A model generated the notes under the pieces. The model did no database searches. It was not told the DNA's origin and saw only the letters and a program-made list of their open reading frames with translations. This document shows positions 28,437-38,104 of a stretch of DNA of 64,000 nucleotides, piece by piece (position 1 is the stretch's first letter; each line of letters opens with the position of its first letter). This DNA comes from Eunapius fragilis (lineage: Eukaryota > Porifera > Demospongiae > Spongillida > Spongillidae). The stretch covers positions 7,862,262-7,926,261 of the forward strand of contig OY811978.1 of the NCBI GenBank assembly GCA_963681505.1, read 5' to 3'. The position numbers and the translations under genes are program-made.

Positions 28437-31400
28437 ATGGATCCCGAAGTGGTCATAGATCCGGGGCGATGTATTTGCGTGCTGGGTCCGCAAGTTACCG
28501 CCGAGTACCTCACTTCCAACCCTAACGGCGTTCCTGCTGTGCTGTCATATCGCGGCCTGGTGGAGTCGGGGATCAACCGGCTGCTCGAACTGGAGCAGTT
28601 TCCCGCCGAAGCAGACAGGCAGCACCGCCAGACTCTGCTCAAAAACGCCTACGAACTGGAGCCCTCGTTCGCAGCTCACAAGGTGGTGGAGTCACTCAAG
28701 GCGTTCGACAGCTACGAGCAGTGGCTCAGCGACTGCTTCGCTCCCCTGCAGCACGCCCGCCCGAGCTCCAAGTCGACTGCGACGACGCTCGAGTGGTTAC
28801 AGGGACTGAAGGCCAAAGGGTTGCCCCTCGCCTACACGCACTACGACAGCGTGCTAGACAACGCACTCAACACGACCCCGCTGCTGCTCGACAACGAGGA
28901 GGTGGTAAACAAGTGGGCAGCGGGTAAAATACCCGGCCTCCTCCACCTCCACGGCGTCGCCTCCCTACCCGGCTCCGTCAAGCTCGACTGCCTCGCCTAC
29001 GAGGCCACGGTGGCCGACTGCCCGGGCGCCAAGGTCCTGAAGCAGCTGTGCAAGACGAGGCACATCGTTTTCTTGGGTTTCGACGACGTCTACTTCGACC
29101 CCTGCATCGCCAGGTTCTCGACCACCTTCGTTGGCCCCGCTCATGCTCCGTCGCGGTTCCCACTCCTTGTTACCTCTTCCACGGGACCACAGACTTGCGC
29201 CCCCTCTTTCCTGACCCTTAGAGTTGCTCACAAGAAGAGTCTAGACAAAATTTTCGGCATCAACACGTCCCTTGGTTCAAATGGTGAGTTTATTTATTTT
29301 TAAATATATAATATTTTTTGTTGCTTATCCAGTTGGTTTCGGACTTGTGACTGCGCATGTTTATGGGATCTCCCTATCACTATGGGATCCTAAGCGACAT
29401 GCTGCAACAACCTGCAGTACCACCATGTGCATTTATCTACGCGTGATGTGTGTATGTGTGTGTGCACATGTGTATATGTGTGTGCCATATGTGTTGCATG
29501 TGCCATGCGAGTATACGTGTGTGTGTGTTTGCATGTGTGTATGTGTGTACACTCAGTGCAATTATGCATTGACCAAAAAAGCCCCACCAATGCTACCCAG
29601 CACTTAATATTACATCCATCTACAGATGACCCAAAATGCATACCACACACATGCAATACCACATGCATAGTATTTGGTTTTCTCTTTACTCTTCCTCCCC
29701 TCCTTCCTCCTCCTCTACACTTCCCTCCCTCCCTCTTCATCTCTTCCTCCCCTCCCACCTCCTCCTTTACACTTCCCTCTCTCCCTCTTCATCTCTTCCT
29801 TCCCTCCCTCCTCCTCCTCTACACTTCCCTCCCTCCCTCTTCATCTCTTCCTCCCCTCCTTCCTCCTCCTCCCTCATCTCCTCCTCATCTCTCTATCCTT
29901 TTTCTCTCATTTCTCCAAGGCCTTTTTTCAGCTTCCCACACTTCCCTGCACCACGACTCCTCCCATCCCATCTGTATCTCCCTCTGCTACGCCTCCACCT
30001 CAAGCCCTTTGCTGGACATGGCTCTGAAGCAGCTACGGACTGTCTTCCCCAACGCACGCTTCTCTCTCTCTCTGGATGGTTCATGTCCTGTGATAACCAT
30101 CTCGTTCAGCAGGAACGACCTTCATCAGTTGTGGAAGGAATTCTTTTTAGAGCCCCTTCTTCTCATGCCATTGCGTAGTGGGCTCCTAGGCATGATACTT
30201 GATGATGACAGCATCACAGTATGGCTGTCCTCGAAGCCAAAGATTCCCTTCGCAGGTGAGTGGCTGCGTTCATTGTGCACAGTTAAGTTTTTATGTTGTG
30301 TGTGTTTGTCGGGTGTGTGTGCACGCATGCATGTGTGTGTGTGTCCATGTGTGTGTGTGTGTGTCTATGTGCGTGTGCGTGTGTGCGTGTGTGTGTTGTA
30401 TGTTTCATTTTGGAGATCCAGTGTTGGGACTGCAGTGCATATTTTTTGGGAGGATGCAATCAATATTGATACTGTGTTTGTGTATATGTGTCGTGTTACA
30501 TGGTTGTATGTTCACAATTAGTATATACAATAATTATGATATAGTTGGTGAGCTCCATTTGGCATTTATGAACTAGTTCACACAGAGCATTTGAATTGGC
30601 AGTGCAAAACATGTGCCTGACACAAAGTTGTTTCTCTACAACTCCCCCAAGTTGGCATGCTTCCTTCACCTGTAGGATTTAGTGCACATACATTTGATAT
30701 ATGTATATATGCATATACAGAGTAAGAGAGAAAGTAGGAGCAGGGCTGTAATAAGAGGGTTTGTGAGGGCATGTTGTCCCTGCTTCCCCCAAAGAATCTT
30801 GGGGTGTAGTATTATATTGCATAATTACTTAGAACATGCAGTAACACAGCAACCATACAATGTGTGGTTGTGGGCAAAGGTTTGCTAATTCATAAGTTGA
30901 ATTTGTGGATATTGATTAATCTTCGCGAGAGAGCGAGAGAGAGAGAGAGAGAGGGAGAGAGAGAGAGAGAGAGAGAGAGAGGGAGAGAGAGAGAGAGAGA
31001 GAGAGAGAGGGAGGGAGGGAGGGAGAGGGAGGGAAGAGAGAGAGAGAGTGTGTGTGTGTGAGTGAGTGTGGGTGTGCTGAGGACCTGACGGAAACTCTTT
31101 GCTATTCTGCGTGAATATATTTGTATAGGTCATGCATGCATGTAGATAGAATGCACCTCTTCATACAGTTGGATCTGTCTGCACGGTTATAGGCTGTATA
31201 TGTATGTATGTACGTATGTACGTACGTATGCACGTATGTATGTATGTATGTATGTATGTACGTACGTATGTACGTATGTATGTATGTATGTATGTATGTA
31301 TGTATGTATTTGTATGGATGTATGTATGTATGTATTTATGTGTGTATGTGTGTATGTATGTATGTATGCATGTATGTATGATGTATGTATGTATGTATGT

Positions 31401-37400: not shown

Positions 37401-38104
37401 AAGTGCACACCCCTCCACCACACCCCCCCCCCCCCCCCCCCCCCCAAATACCATTGCCACTTCCAATCATTCCAAAGTGCATCATCAGCCATTATTTGGG
37501 AGCCCTTTGTACTTCAAAGCCGGAAGGGAGAGTGTATATGTAGAAGGAATTGATGCAATGAAGTTTCTCTATGAAATTATTGTGGGCTTTCTATTTACAA
37601 CTAACACACACACACACACACACACACACACACACACACACACACACACACACACACACACACACACACACACACACACACACACACACACACACACACA
37701 CACACACACACACACACACAGTCCCTGCAGGTAGGGGGCCGATTCAGCTCTGGCAGTTTTTGTTGGACTTGCTCACATCTCCCGACAAGGACGACATAAT
37801 AAGGTGGACTGGAAATGGTTATGAATTTCACATCCTTCAGCCTGAAGAAGTGGCCAAGCTCTGGGGCACGCGCAAGAACAAGCCAAAAATGAATTACGAT
37901 AAGCTCAGTCGGGGCCTTAGGTACTATTACAGCAAAGGCATCATGGACAAGGTGCCTGGAAAGAAGCTGACTTTTAAGTACACTTGTGATGTGCAGCAGT
38001 ATATCCACATGCGGAACTCGAGTCAGGTCAGCCTAACTGGTCAGACGGGTCACACTACACTTCTACTGGATGAAGACTCTTTCCATTCCGATGATGAGCC
38101 CTGA
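28437..38104 (+). CDS. SIR2-like (FAM118-like) / ETS-domain fusion protein A
   Basis: Exons 28437-29283, 29920-30255, 34886-37078 (34847 also possible), 37722-38104; introns all phase 1; about 1252 residues. Residues 8-262 resemble FAM118-type SIR2 domains: C-I-C-V-L-G-P at the Rossmann start, L-L-H-L-H-G-V with the catalytic-type His at 172, then [13 protein letters not shown]. The usual T-N-Y-D reads T-H-Y-D (His135). Exon 2 encodes a compact domain shared with the paralog at 50563-54642. Exon 3 is long, Pro/Ser/Gln-rich and probably disordered, apart from a basic helix ([19 protein letters not shown]) and an 18-residue tandem repeat. Exon 4 is a typical ETS domain ([37 protein letters not shown]) with both recognition arginines. 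A nuclear GGAA-binding factor is expected; what the SIR2-like part does is unknown. The shared exon plan of two paralogs argues against a chance join. Exon 3 and 4 acceptors are the weakest calls. Confidence 0.82.
29690..29915. repeat. C/T-rich repeat before SIR2-ETS A exon 2
   Basis: About four copies of a roughly 50-bp pyrimidine unit (CTCCTCCTCTACACTTCCCT with CCCTCTTCATCTCTTCC). It serves as, or grew from, the pyrimidine tract of the acceptor at 29919. Confidence 0.8.
30928..31070. repeat. (GA)n tract in SIR2-ETS A intron 2
   Basis: GA dinucleotides with GGGA interruptions, ending in a short GT run. Intron 2 (30256-34885) is about 4.6 kb; I found no exon in it. Confidence 0.88.
31198..31545. 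repeat. (TATG)n microsatellite, about 350 bp
   Basis: TATG tetramers with ACGT-type and ATGA interruptions. A longer block of about 125 bp occurs twice (about 31255-31390 and 31425-31520), which suggests an internal duplication. Confidence 0.9.
32728..32940. repeat. 23-bp minisatellite, nine copies
   Basis: TCAAGTGATATCCCTTCACC plus CTC, repeated nine times with C/T variants, in SIR2-ETS A intron 2. Confidence 0.92.
33037..34443. repeat. Complex repeat cluster with one inverted copy and expanding GT cores
   Basis: Two linked modules alternate. One holds GGTTTGGTTCTTGGGAGTGG and CTTAAGAACCATCTTGAGCG, with copies near 33046, 33223 and 33570 and an inverted copy near 33430-33540. The other holds GTTATGGGTTCCCAAGTGTT and ends TTTCACTGTAGAC before a (GT)n run, with copies near 33725, 33954, 34134 and 34353. 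The GT run differs greatly in length between copies (about 40 to 130 bp). Confidence 0.82.
36706..36891 (+). repeat. 54-bp coding tandem repeat in SIR2-ETS A exon 3
   Basis: Three full copies and one partial copy of a 54-bp unit encoding [18 protein letters not shown]. Units are almost identical at the DNA level, so the expansion is young. It lies in the disordered region about 70 residues before the ETS exon. Confidence 0.93.
37079..37721 (+). repeat. SIR2-ETS A intron 3: GT tract at its start, CA tract at its end
   Basis: The intron opens T|GTAAGTTTGTGTGTG and stays GT-rich to about 37230. It closes with a pure (CA)n run from about 37603 to the acceptor CAG at 37721. A C run sits at about 37423-37445. 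The two ends are complementary in the pre-mRNA. Confidence 0.85.

Follow-up and report, generated by a model that had tools for sequence, protein, structure and literature searches.

The question raised by this locus of Eunapius fragilis is whether a SIR2-like domain and an ETS DNA-binding domain, encoded by separate exons of the same strand, belong to a single protein. The first-pass annotation of the 64-kb stretch analysed here (the window) had proposed that they do, placing a SIR2-like domain in exon 1 and a canonical ETS domain in exon 4, with the intervening exons joined in phase and free of stops. The continuity of the reading frame was borne out: the four coding exons of this gene (gene A, 28437-38104; Table 1) have good donors, are all in phase 1 and together encode 1,252 residues without a stop. 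This length is approximate since exons 2, 3 and 4 each have at least one in-phase alternative acceptor. Exon 2 was modelled as a small domain with a beta-alpha-beta-beta-alpha-beta-beta arrangement, at low confidence (pLDDT 55.3). Exon 3, in which a Pfam search returned no domain above its cut-off, encodes a linker that is probably disordered, as judged by eye. This exon also contains about four tandem copies of a unit encoding 18 residues (36707-36900, plus strand), the last copy being partial. Gene A is predicted to encode an ETS factor of approximately 1,250 residues, made up of the SIR2-like domain, a small alpha/beta domain, the disordered linker and an ETS1/2-like domain. We put the probability that exons 1 to 4 constitute one fused SIR2-ETS gene at roughly 0.9.

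Table 1. Predicted features of genes A and B. Positions are those of the window.
Feature	Position	Strand	Description
Gene A exon 1	28437..29283	+	SIR2-like (FAM118-type) domain, 282 aa; phase-1 GTGAGT donor at end
Gene A exon 2	29920..30255	+	phase-1 ends; alternative acceptor 29932
Gene A exon 3	34886..37078	+	long Pro/Ser/Gln-rich linker; alternative acceptor 34847
Motif in gene A exon 3	35635..35730	+	common to genes A and B; basic
Gene A exon 4	37722..38104	+	ETS domain, C-terminal tail, stop; alternative acceptor 37731
Gene A ETS domain proper	37745..37981	+	recognition helix LSRGLRYYY, both Arg present
Gene B exon 1	53835..54642	-	SIR2-like domain; phase-1 GTAAGG donor
Gene B exon 2	53263..53589	-	weak similarity to gene A exon 2
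Gene B exon 3	51367..52932	-	linker; start 52935 with alternative acceptor
Motif in gene B exon 3	52208..52303	-	FVRRKELFVKESRIWSESLQRNLERKVKRLKE; collinear with gene A motif
Gene B exon 4	50563..50918	-	ETS domain and stop; recognition helix LAKGLCYYY, both Arg replaced

Exon 1 is called SIR2-like on the basis of its fold and of profile matching, not of the Pfam cut-off. Against SIR2_2 (PF13289), the gene A exon scored 20.9 bits and that of gene B, the sister gene described below, 16.8 bits, neither of which reaches the curated cut-off of 24.5. With a limit of E 0.01, the same profile matched 17 of the 33 family members, and a precomputed PF13289 label is attached to 30 of the 72 exon 1 homologs (manual count). 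The fold is the SIR2 Rossmann fold with a small helical subdomain. The original reading of this exon, which the absence of any SIR2 profile match would have refuted, stands, though with a Pfam score under the cut-off. The best match in both sequence and fold was FAM118B, and the closest folds also included antiphage SIR2 proteins. The earlier description of the domain as FAM118-type was correct in naming the nearest relative, but not as a statement of membership. The FAM118 clade, as presented in the excerpted PMC12700824, is a vertebrate-specific group of sirtuins resembling antiphage ones, with at least 41% identity to the human FAM118 proteins. By its sequence, the domain of gene A is outside that clade: it shows 17% identity to FAM118B in a structural alignment, comes from a sponge and has Asn163 replaced.

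FAM118A and FAM118B (SIRal) resemble the sponge proteins in being their nearest match, in the His206 and Asp255 positions, which are mostly kept, and in forming a pair of paralogs as A and B do. They differ in being vertebrate proteins endowed with Asn163, whereas sponge A and B have this residue replaced and are joined to an ETS domain. Among antiphage proteins, ThsA gave a weak sequence match to the sponge domain (E 0.034), and the PADLOC models LmuA and Dsr1 matched 8 and 5, respectively, of 33 family members. The antiphage SIR2 proteins (ThsA, DSR2, KomC, Avs5) are bacterial, whereas genes A and B are from a sponge; to our knowledge, these antiphage proteins are coupled to other modules, without ETS.

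The assignment of exon 4 as a canonical ETS domain was confirmed. Matches to Ets (PF00178) reached 118.6 bits in gene A and 90.3 bits in gene B, both passing the cut-off of 26.9, and the closest PDB match to the gene A domain was C-ets-1 (E 3.6e-36). As in ETS1/ETS2-type factors, gene A retains the two recognition-helix arginines, which we take to be the residues contacting GGA. Both arginines are replaced in gene B and in its nearest relatives, P0075 and P0086; they are kept in P0096, P0113 and P0121, which are B-like by their C-terminal ending. The sequence LAKGLCYYY, from which both arginines are gone, suggests that B of the Eunapius lineage may be a regulator. What distinguishes A and B from ETS1/ETS2-type factors is the PNT domain, in place of which their N terminus has the SIR2-like and the small alpha/beta domain: a Pfam search found no SAM_PNT match in exons 1-3 of either gene. 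A genome-wide search, of a kind that could miss ETS domains split by introns, returned five ETS matches, all on contig C8 and four of them within about 0.15 Mb. For two of the three matches outside genes A and B, a SAM_PNT match on the same strand lies upstream at a distance of 1 to 6 kb (SAM_PNT at C8:8051999 with ETS at 8050737, and SAM_PNT at C8:3440170 with ETS at 3445733).

Gene B, which the first-pass proposal of a SIR2-ETS protein does not mention, lies in the same window on the minus strand (54642-50563) and has the same four exons as gene A, in the same order and with the same phases. Its predicted product has 1,018 or 1,019 residues, and its three introns measure 245, 330 and 448 bp. 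The genome searched comprised 218,937,333 bases in 24 contigs; the Eunapius fragilis assembly is described as 218.91 Mb, with 23 chromosomes, of which chromosome 8 measures 9.93 Mb, and a 28.5-kb mitochondrial genome (PMC12616128, in excerpt). Querying these 219 Mb with gene A exon 1 produced two clear matches, A itself and a 39% identical stretch at 53875-54624 on the minus strand; eight further matches had E values of 0.12-0.49 and covered 46-50 residues each. An ETS match (50644-50874) lies downstream of the gene B exon 1 match on the same strand. The SIR2_2 model found gene A and two stop-broken stretches on contig C16, all under the cut-off. A separate observation concerns L031 and L041 on contig C5, where a cathepsin-like exon encodes Ser instead of the catalytic Cys, in the motif CGSSYAF; this is presumably a silicatein-like motif, as would fit a demosponge.

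Exons 1 and 4 of genes A and B are plainly homologous, exon 1 being 37% identical in a two-row alignment. The similarity between the second exons is marginal: 8 of 1000 shuffles scored as well, against 695 and 146 of 1000 in controls. The whole-exon score of exon 3 was reached by 92 of 1000 shuffles, and most of this exon is unalignable. It nonetheless includes a 32-residue motif, probably helical as judged by eye, found at a collinear place in the two genes; none of 500 shuffles was as good, under two designs. Genes A and B appear to be old sisters, and their duplication would predate the divergence of the homologs found. The interval between them harbors a probable DIRS-like retroelement (43700-49800, plus strand) in which one frame encodes a reverse transcriptase and another, scoring slightly below the Pfam cut-off, resembles a tyrosine recombinase; sequence found near 43730 is repeated near 49390. 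Other coding stretches in the window correspond to an EXS-family protein (502-2025, minus strand) and a WD40 protein (12705-13205, minus strand).

At an E-value limit of 0.01, the two-row exon 1 alignment matched 72 database proteins, whose identity to A ranges from 30 to 100%; one of them (P0002) is the Eunapius genome's own copy. A tree built with a quick method from A, B and the 71 remaining homologs, with the short P0073 left out (72 rows), separated an A group of 49 rows from a B group of 23 with an SH-aLRT of 100, at a split where, according to a warning from the tool, long branches meet. Conservation among the homologs ends where genes A and B have their donor. At this boundary, all 22 B-type tails have Cys followed by Lys or Glu, readable as a T before the junction and GTAAG or similar after it; a narrower pattern fits 18 of the 22. 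The A-type rows number 51, including the incomplete P0058 and P0071, the latter placed with B by the tree. The 49 complete A-type tails have Gly at or near the boundary, followed by Glu, Lys or Met in 29 (as scored by script); 4 end at the Gly and 16 continue otherwise. In winA and P0006 the script picked an earlier Gly, and inspection by eye gave GE or GK. This pattern, loose and read from protein tails, suggests that the homologs continue to a phase-1 donor and do not meet a stop. Apparently, the SIR2-like exon is never a stand-alone gene in them, and the exon family is likely to be spread across sponges.

Linkage between the two domains was also sought in other contigs. Matches were taken to share a contig when contig sizes were equal, a rule that is safe for long contigs and weak for short ones, and that shows neither distance, order nor strand. 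The ETS matches used were the 120 listed of 791, each cluster being represented by its longest contig. Foreign contigs of at least 75 kb with a SIR2 exon numbered 17, and six of them also had an ETS exon among the matches listed; the remaining 11 had no ETS partner among the best 120 of 791. The number of ETS matches expected on the 17 contigs is 0.27 (from 5 ETS per 219 Mb; P about 4e-7), rough figures because the density is borrowed from the Eunapius genome and may not fit theirs. The contigs with both exon 1 and ETS have sizes of 293380 (own genome), 782166, 333069, 239653, 2318204, 1426089, 307325 and, for a short one, 5757. In contig 782166 the SIR2 exon is B-type (P0072) and the ETS exon A-type (P0081); A-type and B-type exon 1 matches share three contigs (146904, 801690 and 857521). 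For contigs under 20 kb, chance size matches averaged 0.57 per shifted comparison, with at least one in 176 of 400 shifts. The 5757 match (P0004 and P0075) counts nevertheless, since both members of the pair are closely related B-type sequences with one common source, and this co-location is probably real.

These data bear on the alternative that a FAM118-like gene made of exons 1-2 lies next to an ETS gene made of exons 3-4 and that both were duplicated together as one block. The splicing of exon 2 to exon 3, predicted in both genes, is the least secure step of the model, given the weak similarity of exon 2 between A and B, the mostly unalignable exon 3 and the 4,630-bp intron that separates the two exons in gene A. 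A two-gene arrangement would also account for the outcome of a search of proteins of 689-2193 aa, done with the first 395 residues of gene A and with search words from A alone, which yielded no fused SIR2-ETS protein; its sole match, P0001, combines SIR2_2 with PF05729 (NACHT). However, phases agree at every join in A and B, and a donor, not a stop, seems to close exon 1 in the homologs, a point relevant to the joining of exons 1 and 2. Moreover, only 330 bp lie between exons 2 and 3 of gene B, whose short introns leave little room for a gene boundary, and SIR2-ETS linkage recurs in other contigs. We consider the two-gene arrangement very unlikely. The proposal that SIR2 and ETS exons form one gene has good support in the sequence and fold data, in paralog B and in the linkage in other contigs.

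Residues of FAM118B were mapped by hand onto 73 sequences from profile alignments. The Asn163 position is Asn in none of the 73, being occupied by His in 42, Tyr in 29, Gln in one and Gly in one. His206 is kept in 70 sequences and Asp255 in 69; at the Trp65 position, 53 sequences have Tyr and 10 have Phe. A subgroup of the A clade, comprising 29 sequences (P0015-P0017, P0027, P0033 and others), has Tyr rather than His at the sirtuin Asn, within the motif Y[TS]YYD. In the excerpted account of the FAM118 proteins (PMC12700824), the two paralogs must both be present for NAD to be processed, and head-to-tail contacts are of importance; substitutions at Asn163 or His206 of FAM118B, or at the corresponding FAM118A residues, prevent the mixed-paralog activity, as does the filament mutation F122R, and Asp255 is described as more specific to FAM118s. 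Of the filament-surface residues, F122 was placed differently on the sponge sequences by two profile alignments and L32 fell outside both, so these residues do not speak for assembly. Most of the pocket seems to be kept and the standard chemistry not. That the catalytic Asn is missing from all 73 sequences makes an active NADase less likely and, with His and Asp mostly kept, inclines us towards a module for assembly or ligand sensing rather than an enzyme. The first-pass suggestion of a transcription factor that would sense or assemble through a nucleotide-binding fold agrees with the retained pocket His and Asp.

The explanation that we find best, and to which we would give about even odds as a whole, is a pair of SIR2-ETS factors combining DNA binding with an assembly or ligand module. 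We infer DNA binding, ligand binding, assembly and the partnership of A with B from sequence. The ETS domain of gene A would bind GGA(A/T) sites, and the SIR2-like domain would act as a pocket-bearing assembly module, not as an efficient NADase, through which A could oligomerise, alone or with B, and gather in clusters on DNA. Occupancy of the pocket by NAD or a related nucleotide could provide a switch. The module would take the N-terminal place that PNT has in other ETS factors. The PNT domains of ETV6 and Drosophila Yan polymerise, and the SIR2 and SAM folds are unrelated; the analogy proposed with these factors lies in an N-terminal domain possibly assembling head to tail before the ETS domain. 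A further parallel is offered by the YAP1-FAM118B cancer fusions, in which a FAM118-type domain is carried by a transcription regulator and filament clustering has been proposed (PMC12700824, in excerpt). Those are somatic human fusions to a coactivator, whereas sponge A and B are inherited genes with a DNA-binding domain.

The SIR2-like domain could instead be an active enzyme, an NAD hydrolase or a catalyst of ADP-ribosyl transfer, brought to chromatin by the ETS domain. Retention of the pocket His and Asp in most sequences would agree with this, as would the processing of NAD by the nearest structure, FAM118B, together with FAM118A; but the catalytic Asn is replaced throughout, its change to Ala in FAM118A or FAM118B prevents activity (PMC12700824, in excerpt), and three of the 73 sequences, one of them the incomplete P0071, are also without the His. 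On balance an enzyme seems quite unlikely. A sensor or decoy, in which the domain mimics an immune sirtuin and its binding or alteration by a microbial factor or nucleotide signal frees the ETS factor to turn on defence genes, is unlikely as well. Its closest folds, FAM118B and antiphage SIR2 proteins, and a reported role of FAM118B in TLR-dependent immunity (cited in the excerpted PMC12700824) speak for such a device, yet the sequence indicates no particular trigger. A more specific, and doubtful, version of the SIR2-ETS factor pair is a paired switch: an antiphage-type sirtuin domain deprived of its catalytic Asn would have turned to nucleotide-gated polymerisation, with A binding DNA, B tuning A-B assembly much as in FAM118A/FAM118B, and Eunapius B, with its sequence recognition lost, being a pure regulator. 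If this were true, the activity of ETS target genes would report directly on cellular NAD or a defence nucleotide.

Searches of open PubMed Central papers turned up no description of a SIR2-ETS protein, and neither family seems to have shown this architecture before. It wires a FAM118-related domain, apparently old within sponges, to a DNA-binding domain, and would be a direct link between gene control and an immune-type fold with an NAD pocket. The fusion suggests that such a fold can be put to use in gene control even where its usual catalysis is absent, and represents a route by which ETS factors acquire a regulatory module other than PNT. The A/B pair is a natural experiment on paralog partnership, and the SIR2-ETS genes offer a testable system for the roles of immune-type SIR2 domains in animals.
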